From Chryseobacterium aquifrigidense (GTDB lineage Bacteria; Bacteroidota; Bacteroidia; Flavobacteriales; Weeksellaceae): DNA of 64,000 nucleotides. Shown one piece after another: positions 5,303 through 17,336 of the stretch (the stretch's first letter is position 1; every line of letters begins with the position of its first letter). Both the position numbers and the translations under genes were made by a program. The stretch is taken from assembly GCF_006716485.1 (NCBI RefSeq), contig NZ_VFPD01000001.1:1301096-1365095 (forward strand). The letters are read 5' to 3'. The notes below the pieces were generated by a model, which did not search any database, was not told the origin of the DNA, and saw only the letters and a list, made by a program, of their open reading frames with translations.

Positions 5303-7216
5303 ATGAAAAAAATTCTACTTCCTATCATTTTGATTTCTTCTTATATTTCTGCGCAGATCCCTGCCGGAGATTATGACGGGACAGCCGGACTGACGGGATA
5401 TGCCTTGAAATCAAAAATCCACGATATCATTTCGGAAAAAATGATCAACTGGCATTATGACGACCTTAAGGTGTTATATGCTCAGACTGATCTGGATAAA
5501 TATTATGATCACGATGCCTCTAACACTCAATACTTACTGGATATCTATTCTGAAATTCCTTCAGGGCCAGATTCTTATGAATATACTGCTGATCAGCTGG
5601 TAGCAGGTGTCGGTATGGAAGGGCAAGGGTATAACAGAGAACACATGATGCCGCAAAGTACATTCAGTACAAGCTCTTCCATCAGCGATTATCCTATGTA
5701 TTCGGATCTGAATTTTATAATTCCTGTTGATGGATTTATCAATCAGCGGAGAAGCAATTATCCTTACGGAATAGGAAATAACACGAATCATTATATTTTT
5801 TCCAACACTTCGAGGATATCAAACGCAGCTATTCCAAATTATCCATATACCGGAAGAGTGTATGAGCCTGTCAATGAATTCAAAGGTGACATAGCAAGGT
5901 CATTGTTGTACTTTGTTGTACGGTATGAAGGGAAGTTAGGCTCATTCAATACGGCTTATACGACTTCTGCTAATCTTACTCCTGCTACGGATCAATGTCC
6001 CCTGGATGGTACGGAAGAAAGAGCGGTAGAACCTGCTTATATTGCTATGCTGAAACAGTGGAGTACGGCAGATCCGGTTTCGCAAAGAGAAATTGACCGC
6101 AACAATGCTGTTTATGTCATACAAAAAAACAGAAATCCATTTATTGATCATCCTGAATGGATTGATATGATCTGGTCCGAAACGCCTGACAATATTCCTC
6201 CTGCTGCTCCAGGATCACTGGTTTCAACACAGCAGAACGCTTATTTTGTAAATTTGAACTGGACGGCGTCTCCCGATGCTGATATTTTAGGATACAGGAT
6301 TTATATGAATGGCTCCACGACACCTGTTGCGGTTACCAAAGGGACTTCCATTAGTATAGATCATTTGACTCCGTCAACCACTTATACTTTTACAGTGAAA
6401 GCTTTTGATAAAGCCTATCTGGAATCTCCATTCAGCAATACGGTGACCGCTTCAACGATTGCTTCTGATTCATATGCTCCGGATCTGATGATTACAAAAT
6501 ACATATCCGGAACCAATACGGAATTTGTGAAGAACAATGCTCTGGAAATCGTAAATAAAACAGGACACGAGGTTAATTTAAATAATTACAGAATTAATAT
6601 TCAGTTTAAAAATAATATATCAGGGGCCTTCTATAATGGTGATACGTATGAACTGGAAGGCAAAGTAGGAAATAACGAAACGTTTGTCATCCTGAATCCA
6701 AAAGGTACTTTATCATGCTATAATCCTGATGAAGCAAGGTTTGTAACGGCTTCTGATCCTATGATGTTTGCGGGAGGGAATTATGTGGAGCTTGCATATA
6801 ATAAAACAGTTACCATAGATGCAATTGGGGTAAAATACACCACCAATAACAATGGGAATGTATCTTTATACAGAAAGAGTACAATTCATCAGCCTAACGA
6901 TTCGTTTACTATCAGTGAATGGGATTCCTATCCGTCCAATTACTGCCAGAATCCGGGTGGTACATTGTCTACAGCAGATTTGATTACTGTTAATACAGAG
7001 TTTGCAATATATCCGAATCCTGTTTATGATAATTTATATGTAAATGGAGAAGTTACCAATGTGAAAACAGCTCAGATTATAGATCTTTCAGGAAAAGTAA
7101 TCTATACCGAAAAAGATCCTTTCAGATATAAGAAAAATATATCTGTACAAGGGATTCCAGCAGGAATATATTTCTTAAAGCTTGATGAAAAAGCCCATCA
7201 GTTTATTAAAAAGTAA
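5303..7216 (+). CDS. Secreted endonuclease I family nuclease with FN3, lamin-tail-like and T9SS sorting domains
   Basis: 637 aa secreted DNase-like protein. An N-terminal signal peptide (about 18 residues, ending YISAQ) precedes an endonuclease I/NucM domain carrying the His-containing motif REHMMPQSTF and the downstream YSDLNFIIPVDGFINQRR region. A fibronectin type III domain follows (about 297-384). Next is a region that resembles a lamin-tail domain (about 390-525), then a T9SS type A sorting signal (AIYPNP near 570 to the end). The family degrades extracellular DNA or RNA non-specifically, so a nutritional or biofilm role is inferred. It is monocistronic and followed by a strong hairpin at 7258. 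Confidence 0.92.
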   Translation: MKKILLPIILISSYISAQIPAGDYDGTAGLTGYALKSKIHDIISEKMINWHYDDLKVLYAQTDLDKYYDHDASNTQYLLDIYSEIPSGPDSYEYTADQLVAGVGMEGQGYNREHMMPQSTFSTSSSISDYPMYSDLNFIIPVDGFINQRRSNYPYGIGNNTNHYIFSNTSRISNAAIPNYPYTGRVYEPVNEFKGDIARSLLYFVVRYEGKLGSFNTAYTTSANLTPATDQCPLDGTEERAVEPAYIAMLKQWSTADPVSQREIDRNNAVYVIQKNRNPFIDHPEWIDMIWSETPDNIPPAAPGSLVSTQQNAYFVNLNWTASPDADILGYRIYMNGSTTPVAVTKGTSISIDHLTPSTTYTFTVKAFDKAYLESPFSNTVTASTIASDSYAPDLMITKYISGTNTEFVKNNALEIVNKTGHEVNLNNYRINIQFKNNISGAFYNGDTYELEGKVGNNETFVILNPKGTLSCYNPDEARFVTASDPMMFAGGNYVELAYNKTVTIDAIGVKYTTNNNGNVSLYRKSTIHQPNDSFTISEWDSYPSNYCQNPGGTLSTADLITVNTEFAIYPNPVYDNLYVNGEVTNVKTAQIIDLSGKVIYTEKDPFRYKKNISVQGIPAGIYFLKLDEKAHQFIKK

Positions 7217-7257
7217 ATCATCTAAGGATTTAAACAATATCATTTTTGTGACAAGCC

Positions 7258-7290
7258 AAACCTAACAGGTTTTAAAAACCTGTTAGGTTT
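7258..7290. terminator. Hairpin after the endonuclease gene
   Basis: Perfect 15 bp inverted repeat (7258-7272 and 7276-7290, 3 nt loop) followed by a T-rich stretch. The near-symmetric arm AACCTAACAGG resembles dispersed flavobacterial repeats, so it may double as a repeat element. Confidence 0.7.
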
Positions 7291-7318
7291 ATTTTTATAT
7301 GGTGTGGAAATAATTCAA

Positions 7319-7346
7319 GAGATTGCTTCGCTTTACTCGCAATGAC
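7319..7346. repeat. Short hairpin-forming intergenic repeat
   Basis: The segment contains ATTGC and GCAAT arms around a CTTCGCTTTACTC-type loop. From memory, similar 'GATTGCTTCG...CGCAATGAC' units recur in flavobacterial intergenic DNA. Only one copy is seen in this window. Confidence 0.4.
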
Positions 7347-7350
7347 TTTC

Positions 7351-7462
7351 CTAGCCCTGATAGGAGCGGTTACCCCGGAGTATAAGTGGGAGAGTTGAAG
7401 GGTTAAGCAGCCGGAACAGTAAGGAGCGAGGAGTATGAGCGGATAGCAGGAACAGCTTCTTA
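7351..7462 (+). ncRNA. Structured RNA candidate resembling the Flavo-1 motif
   Basis: The 5' part (AGCCCTGATAGGAGCGG from 7353) and the 3' part (GAGCGGATAGCAGGAACAGCT, ending about 7457) can pair as AGC/GCT and CCTG/CAGG. The near-symmetric GAGCGG and ATAG elements face each other inside, and an A-rich tail follows. This arrangement recalls the Flavo-1 RNA family of Flavobacteriia, as far as I remember it. GC content is well above the flanks. No conserved protein is encoded. It lies between the endonuclease and satD genes. Confidence 0.5.
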
Positions 7463-7629
7463 AAAAAAAAGAAAAAAGTAGAGTTAAAGTTAATATAATA
7501 ACAAAACATCAAACATTTTTTTACATTTCTGTAATTTTGCGGTTTTATGTAACTTCTTAAAAACCTTGTGTTTACTGCATTATTGATATAAGCTGATTCA
7601 CTAATAATCAATATCTATAAGTGTTTCTG

Positions 7630-7668
7630 CTTATATTTTTTATATATAAGTAATTATGCTTATATTTG
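7630..7668 (+). promoter_or_regulatory. satD promoter with repeated CTTATAT sites
   Basis: A -7 element TATATTTG (7661-7668) ends only 4 nt before the satD ATG, predicting a leaderless or near-leaderless mRNA. CTTATAT occurs directly repeated at 7630-7636 and 7659-7665, and in inverted orientation (ATATAAG) at 7644-7650. This is a plausible operator for the HTH-containing SatD itself. Confidence 0.5.
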
Positions 7669-12540: not shown

Positions 12541-13260
12541 TTAGAATTTATAATTCAGGCCTAACTGAAATACTCTGTTGTTATTTTCAGCTGCAGACAT
12601 GCTCTTATCAATCTTTGTTAAGCTGTTTACATATCTTGCATTGATACCGATATTGGAAGTGATGTCATATCCTAAACCAAGGCCTAAACCGAAGTTGAAT
12701 TTGTTGATCATGTCTTTATCAATATCTGTAGAGTGAGAACTTGAAGTGGTAGTTGTAACACCTCCTGTAGTACTTGCTACAGTAGATTCTCCTTTATTTT
12801 TTCCGTTGATGAAATAACTGAATTCAGGTCCTGCTTCGATATAAAACTTATCCGTAGGTCTCATTTGAACCATTAACGGAACTGAAATGTAATCCATTTT
12901 TACTCTGCTCTGTACCTTAGTTTTTACATTCGTTACTCCATTGTCAGTTTCTGTAGAATACATTACATCTTTTGCACCCATTTGGTTATATAATACCTCT
13001 GGCTGGAAGCTGAATTGTTTTGAAATTGGAATATTAACGAATACACCCGCGTGGAAACCTAGTTGTTGAGTGTTGATTCCAAACTTCTGCTGGCTGAAAT
13101 AAGCTGAGTTTCCTCCGGCTTTGATCCCGAATCTAATAGGCTGAACATCATTTTTTAGTGGTGATGCATTTACTGTTTTCGTTTCTGTCTTTGTTTCTGT
13201 CTCCTGAGCAAAAGCTAGCGTACCAGCAGTTAATGCTAATCCTAAAAATAACTTCTTCAT
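12541..13260 (-). CDS. Outer-membrane beta-barrel (porin-like) protein, paralogue 1
   Basis: 239 aa protein with a signal peptide (MKKLFLGLALTAGTLAFAQ) and the alternating beta-strand pattern of the small PorT/OmpW-like outer-membrane barrels common in Bacteroidota. It ends in a final strand (VFQLGLNYKF) with terminal Phe. Shared family blocks are RFGIKAGGN, FSFQPEVLYNQMGAK, DYISVPLMVQMRP, FYIEAGPEFSYF and FGLGLGLGYDITSNIGINARY. It is the longest of the five paralogues and carries a Ser/Thr-rich loop at about 155-170. Ligand or transport role is unknown. A sigma-54-like element lies upstream. Confidence 0.88.
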   Translation of the reverse strand: MKKLFLGLALTAGTLAFAQETETKTETKTVNASPLKNDVQPIRFGIKAGGNSAYFSQQKFGINTQQLGFHAGVFVNIPISKQFSFQPEVLYNQMGAKDVMYSTETDNGVTNVKTKVQSRVKMDYISVPLMVQMRPTDKFYIEAGPEFSYFINGKNKGESTVASTTGGVTTTTSSSHSTDIDKDMINKFNFGLGLGLGYDITSNIGINARYVNSLTKIDKSMSAAENNNRVFQLGLNYKF

Positions 13261-13625
13261 AATTTTATTTTTTTAATTTTACTATTTGTGTGTCGGATAA
13301 TCTCTCAATCAGACTCGAATTATTTTGCAAAATGCTTGCCAAAGTTAAAAAATGCCTGTTTATAAGGGTTTTCAGATGTTTTTTGGAAAGTTTTTTTTTA
13401 ATCATTTATCCCTTTTTGATGAATAAACATATTGTAAAATGACTGTTTTATGAAAATAGTTGAATGCTCAATAAGCTTTATTGTTGATAATTAAAATGAT
13501 AAAAAAAAAGAAACAGAGTACTATTTTCAGGAATTACTCAGCCTTCTTGGATTTTATTGAGAGACAGAAATAAAAAAACCGGACTATTAAAGCCCGGGAC
13601 CAGTTTTTGAAAATAATAAAGATCT
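13261..13625. other. Intergenic region between barrel paralogues 1 and 2
   Basis: 365 bp. Apart from the sigma-54-like element at 13326-13342 and a weak imperfect hairpin (about 13573-13608) that may terminate paralogue 2, it is AT-rich and I see no gene. Confidence 0.55.
13326..13342 (-). promoter_or_regulatory. Sigma-54-like -24/-12 element upstream of paralogue 1
   Basis: Minus strand reads TTGGCAAGCATTTTGCA: TGGCA..., GG-N10-GC spacing and TTGC, a full match to the RpoN promoter core. The predicted start point is near 13316, giving a leader of about 55 nt before the ATG at 13260. Confidence 0.6.
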
Positions 13626-14324
13626 CTATTTAAATTGATAAGCTACGCCAATCTGAAGTGCATTATTTCTGACTTTAGTACCATAATCGTTTTTGAAAAT
13701 TCCTGTTACTCCCGCTGTAAATCTGGCTGTCACTCCAAAATTTTGAGTGAAATAATATCCTGCACCAATTCCGATTCCGAAATTGAACTTATTATATAAT
13801 TTCATTGGAATTTTATTGTCGAAACTTTCAGTACTAGTACTCGTTGTATCATTGTATCTTATTTCATTTCTTCCGTCTCCTTCTATTTTTCCTCCTAAAA
13901 GTAAGCCGAATTCCGGCCCTGCTTCCACATACAACTGAGGAAGAATGTGGTATTGAACCATTACAGGAAGGGTAAGATAATTTAAATTTGTCTTATAAGT
14001 ATATTCCTGCTTTGTGTAAGAATTTTCTGAATGATGAATGAAAATATCTTCGGTTTTTGAACCTAATTGACTGAAAAGAAGTTCGGGTTGTATACTGAAT
14101 TTTTCAGCAAGAGGAATATTCGCAAATACTCCGATATATGAACCAGCTTTCACTTTTTCACTATTATCTACTTCGTTTCTTTCGCCTCTGCTGAAAGTAG
14201 AGCCGTTGAAACCGGCCTTAATCCCAAATCTAACTGAAGGTGCTGTGGTGACAGGCTGTTCTTTTTCCTGAGCATTCATTAAAAAAGAGCCGACAAATGT
14301 AAGTCCTAGAAAAAATTTTTTCAT
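13626..14324 (-). CDS. Outer-membrane beta-barrel (porin-like) protein, paralogue 2
   Basis: 232 aa. Signal peptide MKKFFLGLTFVGSFLMNAQ, then family blocks RFGIKAGFNGSTF, FANIPLAEKFSIQPELLFSQ, LTLPVMVQYHILPQLYVEAG and FNFGIGIGAGYYFTQNFGVT, ending IGVAYQFK. Its signal peptide and loops are the most divergent of the five, which fits an older duplicate. The start is set by the signal peptide and by a full sigma-54-like element 28 nt upstream (14351-14367). It is predicted in the outer membrane; the ligand is unknown. Confidence 0.87.
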   Translation of the reverse strand: MKKFFLGLTFVGSFLMNAQEKEQPVTTAPSVRFGIKAGFNGSTFSRGERNEVDNSEKVKAGSYIGVFANIPLAEKFSIQPELLFSQLGSKTEDIFIHHSENSYTKQEYTYKTNLNYLTLPVMVQYHILPQLYVEAGPEFGLLLGGKIEGDGRNEIRYNDTTSTSTESFDNKIPMKLYNKFNFGIGIGAGYYFTQNFGVTARFTAGVTGIFKNDYGTKVRNNALQIGVAYQFK

Positions 14325-14350
14325 GGTTTAAGTTATTTTTTTTGTTTTGC

Positions 14351-14367
14351 GGCAAAATATCTGCCAT
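14351..14367 (-). promoter_or_regulatory. Sigma-54-like element upstream of paralogue 2
   Basis: Minus strand reads ATGGCAGATATTTTGCC with exact GG-N10-GC spacing. The -12 GC is about 28 nt before the ATG at 14324, implying a leader of about 16 nt. Confidence 0.6.
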
Positions 14368-14401
14368 AAAGATGAGAAATGATAAAAATCATGCTGTATG
14401 C

Positions 14402-14684
14402 GAAAAAGTCAAGCTTAAACTAATAAACCTGACTTTTTCTATTGAAATCAAAATGTATTCTATTGATAAAACAAAATATCCTCAATATTCTGTTGTGCAC
14501 TCTGTTGGACAGCCCAACCTGACACAGTTCTCGTTAAAAGGTGATGGTAATAGTTAGATTTTAATTTTGATATTCAATTGAATATCAACTGAATCAAAGC
14601 ATACTCATTGTGAAAACAAGACCGTAAGTTGGAAATTTCCGGATAGAGTACAATCAATTATTCAATACGCAAATTTCTTGCCAA
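14402..14684 (-). ncRNA. Candidate small RNA between barrel paralogues 2 and 3
   Basis: This 447 bp gap (14325-14771) has no convincing CDS. On the minus strand it carries its own sigma-54-like element TTGGCAAGAAATTTGCG (14668-14684, exact GG-N10-GC) and, about 220 nt later, a terminator-like hairpin (arms 14402-14411 and 14430-14439, GAAAAAGTCA). Between them are a perfect 22 bp palindrome (14567-14588) and a GTTGG/CCAAC hairpin near 14510-14524. Together these define a possible structured transcript of about 250 nt. Alternatives are a decayed sixth paralogue's promoter, or a long leader for paralogue 2. Confidence 0.35.
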
Positions 14685-14704
14685 AAAATAGACAAATAAT
14701 AAAA

Positions 14705-14730
14705 AAGCCGGATTATATTAAATCCGGCTT
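14705..14730 (-). terminator. Terminator of barrel paralogue 3
   Basis: Perfect 10 bp stem AAGCCGGATT/AATCCGGCTT, with an A run at 14701-14706 that is a T tract on the minus strand. It lies 42 nt after the stop at 14772. Confidence 0.88.
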
Positions 14731-14771
14731 TGTATTGATGAGTAGTTTGCTTTAAAAGCTAAACTGATTTC

Positions 14772-15365
14772 TTAGAATTTATAAGCTAAACCAAACTGGA
14801 ATACACCATTTTTAGCTTTATCTTCAGATAGATCTGGTCTGTTTTTAGCAACGTCTGTTAAACCTGCAACATATCTTGCAGTAACTCCGATGTTCTGTGT
14901 GAAGTAGTATCCTGCTCCAAGGCCAATTCCGAAGTCAAAACCTTTGAAAAGATCTTTAGCATCTGCAGAATTGGAATTAGCTTTCAGTTTTGAGTTAACC
15001 AAAAAGCTGAACTGAGGTCCTGCTTCCAGATATAGGTTAGGAAGAGCATTATATTGAAGCATTAATGGTACAGAAATATAATCCAGATTTACTTTTACAT
15101 CATTACTTCCTTTAATCTTTGCTCCCATTCCGCTGTACAATACTTCCGGTTGGAAAGAGAAGTCCTGAGCTACAGGAATGTTAGCAAACAATCCTCCGTA
15201 GAATCCAGCTTTAGAATTGAAGTCATTCTCGGTAAGAGTAGAGATATTAAGACCTGCTTTTATTCCAAATCTAACTGGAGAAGATGAAGCAGTAGAAGTT
15301 GAAGTCTTTTGAGCGAAAGTAAAAGTACCTGCTACTAGGGCAAGACCTAAAAGAATTTTTTTCAT
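14772..15365 (-). CDS. Outer-membrane beta-barrel (porin-like) protein, paralogue 3
   Basis: 197 aa, the shortest copy. Signal peptide MKKILLGLALVAGTFTFAQ, then RFGIKAGLNISTL, FANIPVAQDFSFQPEVLYSG, LDYISVPLMLQYNALPNLYL and FDFGIGLGAGYYFTQNIGVT, ending VFQFGLAYKF. It is closest to paralogues 4 and 5 (a VAGLTDVAKNRP segment is shared with paralogue 5), pointing to recent tandem duplication. It has its own terminator and a sigma-54-like element. Predicted outer-membrane location; function unknown. Confidence 0.88.
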   Translation of the reverse strand: MKKILLGLALVAGTFTFAQKTSTSTASSSPVRFGIKAGLNISTLTENDFNSKAGFYGGLFANIPVAQDFSFQPEVLYSGMGAKIKGSNDVKVNLDYISVPLMLQYNALPNLYLEAGPQFSFLVNSKLKANSNSADAKDLFKGFDFGIGLGAGYYFTQNIGVTARYVAGLTDVAKNRPDLSEDKAKNGVFQFGLAYKF

Positions 15366-15415
15366 AAGTTTTATATTTTAATAGTTATTAAGTTTTATTT
15401 AACATTTCATTAAGA

Positions 15416-15432
15416 ATCAAACGGTGTGCCAA
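15416..15432 (-). promoter_or_regulatory. Sigma-54-like element upstream of paralogue 3
   Basis: Minus strand reads TTGGCACACCGTTTGAT: a perfect -24 TGGCAC half and a -12 half TTGA, differing from TTGC at one base, with correct spacing. Confidence 0.5.
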
Positions 15433-15503
15433 AGTTATAGTATGTTGTAAATCTGCTATTCAACATATGTTTATAAGAATAATTTTTTCATTTATGCTAA
15501 AAA

Positions 15504-15526
15504 AGTCGGATTAAATTAATCCGACT
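15504..15526 (-). terminator. Terminator of barrel paralogue 4
   Basis: Perfect 10 bp stem AGTCGGATTA/TAATCCGACT with an upstream A run (a T tract on the minus strand), 45 nt beyond the stop at 15571. Confidence 0.85.
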
Positions 15527-15570
15527 CCACTTTAATTATAAAAACTTAATGAAAAAAGCTTACTAAAGCT

Positions 15571-16191
15571 TTAGAATTTGTAATTTATTCCTACCTGGAA
15601 TACGCCATTTTTCACAGAGCCCTCTCTGTCATATCCGTAAAGATATCGATGACTTTTATTTACAATATCAGATAATCCTGCAGTATATCTTACATTCACA
15701 CCGATATTTTTAGTGAAATCGTAGCCAGCGCCCAATCCGATTCCAAAATCAAAACCTCTGGTCGCATCTTTAAGGTGTAAACTTCCCACATTGTTTTTCA
15801 GTCTGGCATCCATTAAGAAGCTAAATTGAGGCCCGGCTTCTACATAAAAATTAGGGAGTGCTTTATATTGAAACATTACAGGAACAGAAATATATTCCAA
15901 TTCAAGTTTTGCATTACTTCCTCCTTTCTCTTTAGCTCCCACAGCACTATATAATACTTCTGGCTGAACAGAGAAATCCTTAGCGACAGGAATGTTTACA
16001 AAGACACCACCATAGAATCCGGCTCTTGACTTCATATCCATATTAGAAAGATTGGAAACATTCAATCCTGCTTTCAAACCGAATTTGATTTTAGAAGAAG
16101 ATGGAGTAGTAGCTTCAGTAGAAGTTGAAGTGCTTTGAGCAAAAGTAAAAGTACCTGCAATAAGTGCCAGGCCTAGAAAAATCTTTTTCAT
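15571..16191 (-). CDS. Outer-membrane beta-barrel (porin-like) protein, paralogue 4
   Basis: 206 aa. Signal peptide MKKIFLGLALIAGTFTFAQ, a Ser/Thr linker, then KFGLKAGLNVSNL, FVNIPVAKDFSVQPEVLYSA, LEYISVPVMFQYKALPNFYV and FDFGIGLGAGYDFTKNIGVN, ending VFQVGINYKF. It is highly similar to paralogue 3. A basic, Tyr-rich loop (HRYLYGYDREG) near the C-terminus is unique among the copies. Predicted outer-membrane barrel; ligand unknown. Confidence 0.88.
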   Translation of the reverse strand: MKKIFLGLALIAGTFTFAQSTSTSTEATTPSSSKIKFGLKAGLNVSNLSNMDMKSRAGFYGGVFVNIPVAKDFSVQPEVLYSAVGAKEKGGSNAKLELEYISVPVMFQYKALPNFYVEAGPQFSFLMDARLKNNVGSLHLKDATRGFDFGIGLGAGYDFTKNIGVNVRYTAGLSDIVNKSHRYLYGYDREGSVKNGVFQVGINYKF

Positions 16192-16232
16192 AGATTAGTT
16201 TAATTTTTTATGTTGTTTAACGTCCGAGAAGC

Positions 16233-16249
16233 AACAAACAATATGCCGC
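16233..16249 (-). promoter_or_regulatory. Weak sigma-54-like element upstream of paralogue 4
   Basis: Minus strand reads GCGGCATATTGTTTGTT: GGCA and TTTG halves at the same spacing as in the other copies, but with CGG and TTGT substitutions. It is the weakest of the six. Confidence 0.35.
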
Positions 16250-16354
16250 TAAACCCCATGTATAAAGACTTTATGGGTTTTTAACAAATCGATAATTCAT
16301 CAAAATGGGATGTATTTTTGCTGTTTTATGAACTCTTTGTTATTTTAACATAAA

Positions 16355-16388
16355 AAAAGAACAGATTAAAAAATTAATCTGTTCTTTT
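16355..16388 (-). terminator. Terminator of barrel paralogue 5
   Basis: 14 bp inverted repeat (16355-16368 and 16375-16388) with flanking A/T runs, 36 nt after the stop of paralogue 5. Confidence 0.85.
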
Positions 16389-16423
16389 CTATTGAATATA
16401 AAATTTGTTAGTGAATGTGTAGC

Positions 16424-17059
16424 TTATTTAAATTTATAAGCTAATCCTACCTGGAATAGGTTGTTTCTTGTAGCATCGGATCCGCTAGGTCTGTTTTTCG
16501 CTACATCTGTTAAACCTGCTACATATCTGGCAGTAAGTCCTAGGTTCGGAGTGAAATAATATCCTGCACCAAGACCAATACCAAAGTTAAATGTATTTAG
16601 ATTGTCTTTGTAGTTATCTGTAGTGTTAGACTGTCCATTTGATTCATTTTTGAACTTGTTTTTAGCACTTACCATGAAACCAAATTCCGGTCCTGCTTCT
16701 ACATAAAGATTTGGGATCAGGTTGTACTGGAACATTACTGGTACAGTAATATAATCTAATTTAGTAGAAGCGGAATATTTTGTTCCTGCTACTGTATAAT
16801 CTGATTTATTACCATATTGTGAATATTGAACCTCCGGCTGAACGCTGAATGAAGCTGCTAATGGAATGTTGGCAAATACACCTGCGTTGAATCCTATTTT
16901 AGATTTCTGATCATCAAGACCGCTATCTTTTGAAAGGGAAGAAACGTTCATACCTCCTTTTACCCCAAATGTTACCGGATTAGAAGATGTGTTTCCTGTC
17001 TGTTGAGCGAATGCGAATGTTCCTGCAGTTAACGCTAATCCTAAAATTAACTTTTTCAT
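16424..17059 (-). CDS. Outer-membrane beta-barrel (porin-like) protein, paralogue 5
   Basis: 211 aa. Signal peptide MKKLILGLALTAGTFAFAQ, then TFGVKGGMNVSSL, FANIPLAASFSVQPEVQYSQ, LDYITVPVMFQYNLIPNLYV and FNFGIGLGAGYYFTPNLGLT, ending VGLAYKFK. Strand order and conserved turns match paralogues 1-4. All five lie in the same orientation with separate promoters and terminators, so they can be expressed independently. Predicted outer-membrane barrel with unknown ligand. Confidence 0.88.
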   Translation of the reverse strand: MKKLILGLALTAGTFAFAQQTGNTSSNPVTFGVKGGMNVSSLSKDSGLDDQKSKIGFNAGVFANIPLAASFSVQPEVQYSQYGNKSDYTVAGTKYSASTKLDYITVPVMFQYNLIPNLYVEAGPEFGFMVSAKNKFKNESNGQSNTTDNYKDNLNTFNFGIGLGAGYYFTPNLGLTARYVAGLTDVAKNRPSGSDATRNNLFQVGLAYKFK

Positions 17060-17141
17060 AACTTTAATTTTTTTAATTTTACTCTTTCTTAATTTTAAAT
17101 TTTACTACTGTTCAGCATTTTCAGTTGAACGCAGAGTATCT

Positions 17142-17158
17142 TTCAAATTGCTTGCCAA
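17142..17158 (-). promoter_or_regulatory. Sigma-54-like element upstream of paralogue 5
   Basis: Minus strand reads TTGGCAAGCAATTTGAA: perfect TGGCAAG -24 half and TTGA at -12 (one mismatch to TTGC) with the same spacing as in the other copies. Confidence 0.5.
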
Positions 17159-17215: not shown

Positions 17216-17336
17216 AAAATATCTTATTGATTATCAATGTTTTTGCAATTTTAAATAAATGTTTGTTTAGACATGATCTAAATTGACAATTTTGTCAAAA
17301 ACAAGCCGTAAATCAAATTTTTTTTTGAAAAAAATG

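Follow-up and report, generated by a model that had tools for sequence, protein, structure and literature searches.

A tandem outer-membrane barrel array in Chryseobacterium with sigma-54-type promoters and a sixth promoter predicted to make a barrel-derived noncoding RNA

Five tandem minus-strand genes in a Chryseobacterium-like genome of 5.13 Mb encode outer-membrane barrels, and a preliminary description of the locus placed sigma-54-like promoter elements in front of all five and proposed a shared RpoN-regulated module. The window analysed here is the whole 64 kb stretch C1:1301096-1365095, and the array within it raises two questions: whether its elements are sigma-54 promoters, and what is served by a sixth element that stands among five genes. 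A sigma-54 barrel module, together with a sixth promoter that makes a noncoding RNA derived from a barrel gene, is as a whole a probable answer to both. Genome stretches totalling 1.6 Mb were used, and the comparison set consisted of 69 related loci, nearly all named Chryseobacterium. The genes are read in the order g5, g4, g3, g2, g1. All pass the cut-off of the Pfam profile PF13568 (OMP_b-brl_2), with values of 1.6e-27 to 6.8e-34, and the paralogues are 44-59% identical to g5. Lengths are given in nucleotides (nt) or amino acids (aa).

12541-13260, minus strand: g1, barrel gene, 239 aa, OMP_b-brl_2 (PF13568, 1.6e-27)
13626-14324, minus strand: g2, barrel gene, 232 aa (PF13568, 9.7e-33)
14772-15365, minus strand: g3, barrel gene, 197 aa (PF13568, 2.6e-31)
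15571-16191, minus strand: g4, barrel gene, 206 aa (PF13568, 1.1e-31)
16424-17059, minus strand: g5, barrel gene at the head of the array, 211 aa (PF13568, 6.8e-34)

Results

Sigma-54-type elements in front of the barrel genes

The motif TGGCA-N5-TTTG, with that spacing, occurs five times in the window, in each case inside the array and on the coding strand (minus-strand positions 13328-13341, 14353-14366, 14670-14683, 15418-15431 and 17144-17157). Genome-wide the motif is not rare overall, matching 51 times where its reversed control matches 48 times, so that about 0.04 would be expected per 3.8 kb. Five copies in 3.8 kb are far from chance (Poisson probability ~1e-9). Given that the sites are paralogous they are not independent, and conservation across species is therefore a better test than the Poisson estimate. 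The elements assigned to the barrel genes are as follows.

13327-13341, minus strand: g1 element TGGCAAGCATTTTGC; predicted start ~13315; kept in 53/56 g1 relatives
14352-14366, minus strand: g2 element TGGCAGATATTTTGC; predicted start ~14340; 11 full and 16 GGC-variant copies among 34 relatives
15417-15431, minus strand: g3 element TGGCACACCGTTTGA; predicted start ~15405; kept in 34/46 relatives
16234-16248, minus strand: g4 degenerate element CGGCATATTGTTTGT; predicted start ~16222; same variant in 8/9 relatives
17143-17157, minus strand: g5 element TGGCAAGCAATTTGA; predicted start ~17131; little change in block TTTTGGCAAGCAATTTGAAAGATACT across 65 aligned species

Three of the six elements end in TTTGC and have the full GG-N10-GC form, as originally counted; these are the copies at 13327 (g1), 14352 (g2) and 14669, the last being an orphan element described below. 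At g3 and g5 the C at the -12 position is replaced by A, and g4 has a weaker variant. The elements were also said to occupy one relative place, which is not the case: the T of TGGCA lies 42-98 nt before the ATGs (81 nt at g1, 42 at g2, 66 at g3, 57 at g4 and 98 at g5), and the predicted leaders are 55, 16, 40, 31 and 72 nt long, respectively.

A motif search in orthologous arrays, suggested earlier as a check, found the element again before orthologous barrels across Chryseobacterium, with flanks that drift. It is present before g5 in 66 of 74 relatives. Motif-blind alignment of 65 g5 upstream regions gave TTTTGGCAAGCAATTTGAAAGATACT as a strongly conserved block apart from the start codon and an A-rich leader. 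Among g3 relatives both ends of the element are constant and the five spacer bases vary. Beyond Chryseobacterium, three genera of the same family have TTTGGCAA-N3-ATTTGA in front of barrel relatives. In L092 the g5 element TGGCAAGTAATTTGA stands twice, 228 and 90 nt before the ATG, which suggests that the g5 promoter region has been duplicated there.

Outside the array, in 1.26 Mb, four of five copies of TTGGCA-N5-TTTG lay outside coding sequence; copies of the reversed motif, or with other spacings, were mostly coding. Sites of this kind stand in front of tonB, grpE-dnaJ and a polysaccharide deacetylase gene. All 29 genomes read for grpE have the element before this gene, and 28 of 30 have it before tonB; grpE is stated to be sigma-54 dependent in Bacteroidota in PMC12316311. 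The polysaccharide deacetylase lipoprotein gene that carries the element (G000:C1:996892-996905; L012, L149) is found two genes upstream of an activator gene encoding a GSFTGA loop. A single RpoN of 487 aa, with the RpoN box ARRTIAKYRE, is encoded in the genome along with five enhancer-binding AAA+ activators whose loop reads GAFTGA or GSFTGA. The motif and its conservation are read from the sequence, and RpoN dependence is predicted from it. On these grounds the shared RpoN-regulated outer-membrane module proposed earlier is supported as the best reading of the sequence, with the sigma-54 layout, conservation among orthologues, the grpE and tonB elements and the presence of RpoN and its activators all pointing to it.

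One candidate site for such an activator was identified upstream of g5.

17266-17282: palindrome TTTAGA-N5-TCTAAA, TTTAGACATGATCTAAA, candidate activator site, ~143 nt before the predicted g5 start

It was found at one mismatch or fewer in 50 of 74 g5 relatives, with invariant arms and a variable spacer. An activator palindrome common to all five genes was considered and rejected, as g5 alone has one.

The sixth element and a predicted noncoding transcript

The remaining element had been counted in the region at position 14668. It is not a second promoter of a barrel: a terminator stands between it and g2, and no barrel lies behind TTTTTTGGCAAGAAATTTGCGTA (around 14669-14683). Its link to a predicted noncoding transcript had been overlooked.

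14669-14683, minus strand: orphan sigma-54-type element TGGCAAGAAATTTGC; predicted start 14657
14401-14657, minus strand: predicted noncoding transcript of ~257 nt, small RNA candidate
14440-14459, minus strand: near-invariant unpaired stretch before the terminator, AATACATTTTGATTTCAATA; 33 species
14402-14439, minus strand: terminator hairpin ending the noncoding transcript; 15 pairs, two of which show compensatory changes

The orphan-type element TTTGGCAAGRADTTTGC occurs once in each of 78 of 148 genomes of the genus, with one match for the control. In 34 species, the window included, a variable interior and then AATACATTTTGATTTCAATAGAAAAAGTCAGG...CCTGACTTTTTC lie downstream of the orphan element, and the near-invariant 3' block of the locus consists of AATACATTTTGATTTCAATAG and the terminator hairpin. 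Among 30 loci sampled from whole genomes, this 3' block rather than a barrel follows the orphan element in 23. The predicted transcript is 103-259 nt long across species and contains no conserved open reading frame, the longest being 34 aa and several species having none. The transcript of the window has a fold z of -5.9, and of -3.3 without the terminator. In ten close relatives a few pairs of the interior structure are compensated. No Rfam family reached its gathering cut-off for this transcript. With a conserved promoter, an intrinsic terminator and no conserved open reading frame, the locus is a candidate small RNA gene.

Within one subclade (L067, L068, L069, L071, L075, L076, L078, L079 and L119) the RNA has a short form with a conserved AAAGTTTCTTCATATA, which is antisense to a ATGAAGAAACTTT-type start region. 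In one subclade the RNA is antisense to TATATGAAGAAACTTT, which is not claimed as a target; perfect matches in nine genomes apparently represent the RNA locus only, and matches with one mismatch lie inside another gene or before an M16-like peptidase in three of nine.

Proposed origin of the noncoding transcript from a barrel gene

In eleven loci (L070, L077, L080, L083, L084, L097, L098, L107, L109, L112 and L122) a g3-like barrel of 184-193 aa stands behind the orphan promoter or one very similar to it. C. defluvii is an example of a sister species that still has the barrel of ~190 aa. In most of these the 3' block (TTTCAATAGAAA and hairpin) starts 9-13 nt past the stop codon of the barrel. 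A tree was built from aroB, GDPD, purF and rluB, which flank the array. The 34 noncoding species, together with L073, which is without the element, form one clade with support of 1.0, nested among gene-bearing species. No barrel coding remnant was found inside the RNA. A paralogous copy of the 3' block stands behind g5.

16352-16410, minus strand: g5 3' end block (TTCAATAGAAAA and hairpin), a paralogue of the block at the 3' end of the noncoding transcript (model R1, 40 bits)

The module of TTCAATAGAAAA and hairpin is seen after g5 (16352-16410) and at 14400-14460, and in other species it also follows other barrels of the family. Given that the block follows g5 in the window and in many species, it is a 3'-end module of the barrel family. 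A single loss of the coding part is the simplest history, and an RpoN-driven small RNA most likely took the place of a barrel gene on one occasion. The noncoding state, the 3' block and the tree are observed; transcription of the locus and the function of its RNA are predictions.

Alternative explanations

Several observations weigh against an RpoN-driven barrel module with a functional RNA. The claim that TGGCA and TTTG precede every paralogue stands for g1, g2, g3 and g5 and fails for g4 (16233), where CGGCA-N5-TTTG is found instead, without the T of TGGCA. Before the four barrels other than g5, the g5-type palindrome gives single weak matches at most. Across species the mean fold z of the transcript is -5.0 and only -1.7 without the terminator, so that the fold outside the terminator is moderate. 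The RNA interior is poorly conserved between subclades. Duplex energies of the conserved 3' stretch against 1339 gene starts were no better than those of shuffled seeds, and antisense k-mers near gene starts showed a weak excess at most. In the tree, nodes below the noncoding clade have support of 0.56-0.96. To these is added that, at g1, g3 and g5 of the window genome, a TAnnTTTG (TAACTTTG or TATTTTTG) shares bases with the TTTGG of the element, which was overlooked in the preliminary description, and that a full -33/-7 pair is present in 16 of 66 g5 relatives. This overlap could mean that the elements are housekeeping Bacteroidota promoters, in which the TTTG of TTTGGCA would belong to a -7 box TAnnTTTG while the GGCA and the downstream TTTG would be due to chance or the leader. 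At g5 a -33 TTG lies at a fitting distance, and the TA is kept in 22 of 66 relatives; given the overlap and the -33/-7 pairs, dual housekeeping and RpoN control of g5 is possible. However, a TA 4 nt before the TTTG is near background at g1, g3, the orphan element, grpE and tonB. The conserved parts, an invariant GGCA and a TTTG exactly 5 nt further on, are not what a housekeeping promoter predicts, and half of the tonB elements lack a TTTG before the GCA and yet keep TGGCA-N5-TTTG. A purely housekeeping origin of the elements is accordingly improbable. TAnnTTTG itself had been assigned to most other genes here, which was overstated: it occurs within 150 nt upstream of 207 of 530 genes (39%), compared with 64/530 and 70/530 for two reversed controls. 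It is still less probable that TGGCA-N5-TTTG is bound by a repressor or another regulator. A partial palindrome is seen in some copies, e.g. TGGCAGATATTTTGCCG, whereas most, including those of g3, g5, tonB and grpE, are not palindromic; spacing and base choice are those of a -24/-12 promoter, the sites lie 40-100 nt before ATGs, and grpE is among the sigma-54 genes reported for Bacteroidota in PMC12316311.

For the sixth element, a role as a distal second promoter of g2 is very improbable, although it lies upstream of g2 and on the same strand in most species. The terminator that separates the two is conserved, g2 has an element of its own, and the orphan persists in species without g2. More weight is due to the explanation that the element and the 3' block are a functionless, decaying relic of a lost barrel gene and any transcription is noise. 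The promoter and 3' block do match intact barrel genes of sister species, and the interior diverges and shortens freely. A relic, however, should lose its promoter first, whereas promoter and 3' end are both retained in 34 of 35 descendants of the clade while the interior becomes too divergent to align between subclades. Changes in the hairpin are compensated, and the orphan locus outlives g2 in L062, L111, L113, L114 and L118. The retained ends, the free interior and the persistence without g2 argue for a selected RNA over a relic. A relic is therefore considered unlikely, and a functional small RNA somewhat more likely than not. The fuller proposal is that a single event, in the common ancestor of a large Chryseobacterium clade, turned an outer-membrane barrel gene into a functional regulatory RNA under RpoN control, which retained the promoter and 3' end of the gene and so would be co-expressed with the remaining barrels and regulate the envelope. 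It is put forward with slightly better than even confidence.

Other observations on the array

The array is flanked by aroB (3-dehydroquinate synthase) and a glycerophosphodiester phosphodiesterase gene. Two sequence classes of g5 were noted (L106, C. culicis, 7001-7645, and L330) that are discordant with the species tree, which suggests allele exchange at g5. The flanking genes of L106 group with those of the window, while its g5 is only 67% identical, compared with 85-89% for g1 and g3. In L101 (Chryseobacterium sp. E1) four barrel reading frames were found, each a short fragment (103-176 aa), and the array looks broken, or its assembly frameshifted.

Discussion

In the mechanism proposed here, RpoN-polymerase would bind the -24/-12 form of this lineage, TTTGGCA-N5-TTTG followed by C, A or T, before each barrel and await an enhancer-binding ATPase. 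At g5 the activator may bind TTTAGA-N5-TCTAAA, ~143 nt upstream of the start. The same holoenzyme would read the promoter at 14669 into a noncoding RNA of ~257 nt ending at the hairpin terminator. This RNA would descend from a barrel gene of ~190 aa, of which one clade appears to have lost the coding sequence once while keeping the promoter and 3' end. Sigma-E-driven RNAs repress outer-membrane proteins (OMPs). By analogy with these and with the RpoN-driven GlmY, base pairing in trans is the most likely mode of action of the RNA, which may tune envelope mRNAs as the barrels are turned on.

Little experimental work has so far been devoted to sigma-54 regulation in Bacteroidota, and the barrel array, tonB and grpE offer a compact and testable regulon core whose promoter form is defined. 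The sixth promoter marks a phylogenetically resolved, apparent change of a protein gene into a noncoding RNA gene, with sister species that still carry the gene; as an apparent barrel-to-RNA change it is an unusually clear bacterial example. Because gene-bearing sisters are living and the history is resolved, the origin of small RNAs becomes directly testable. In the literature searched, from which subscription journals were mostly absent, neither a Flavobacteriia small RNA driven by sigma-54 nor the barrel array was reported.

The elements resemble known sigma-54 -24/-12 promoters in the GG-N10-GC layout, the TGGCA and TTG core, the distance to start codons and the presence of RpoN with enhancer-binding proteins. 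They differ in that the -12 side reads TTTG and then C, A or T, a lineage-specific form known from sequence. According to PMC12316311, the predicted sigma-54 regulon of Flavobacteriia includes TonB and heat-shock genes such as grpE, and the same element is conserved here before tonB and grpE; text searches of that paper turned up neither a tandem barrel array nor Chryseobacterium nor a small RNA. GlmY is a sigma-54-dependent, envelope-connected small RNA of Enterobacteriaceae (PMC6075780). The RNA predicted here would share with GlmY a sigma-54-type promoter on an envelope-connected small RNA. However, the two have no homology, and GlmY is activated by QseF, whereas the Chryseobacterium RNA lies in a barrel array and appears to be barrel-derived. 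MicA, RybB and MicL are 3'UTR-derived or OMP-regulating small RNAs driven by the envelope sigma factor. With these the candidate has in common a link to OMPs and a conserved 3' end with terminator, although under a different sigma factor, and here the whole coding part appears to have been lost with the promoter and 3' end kept.

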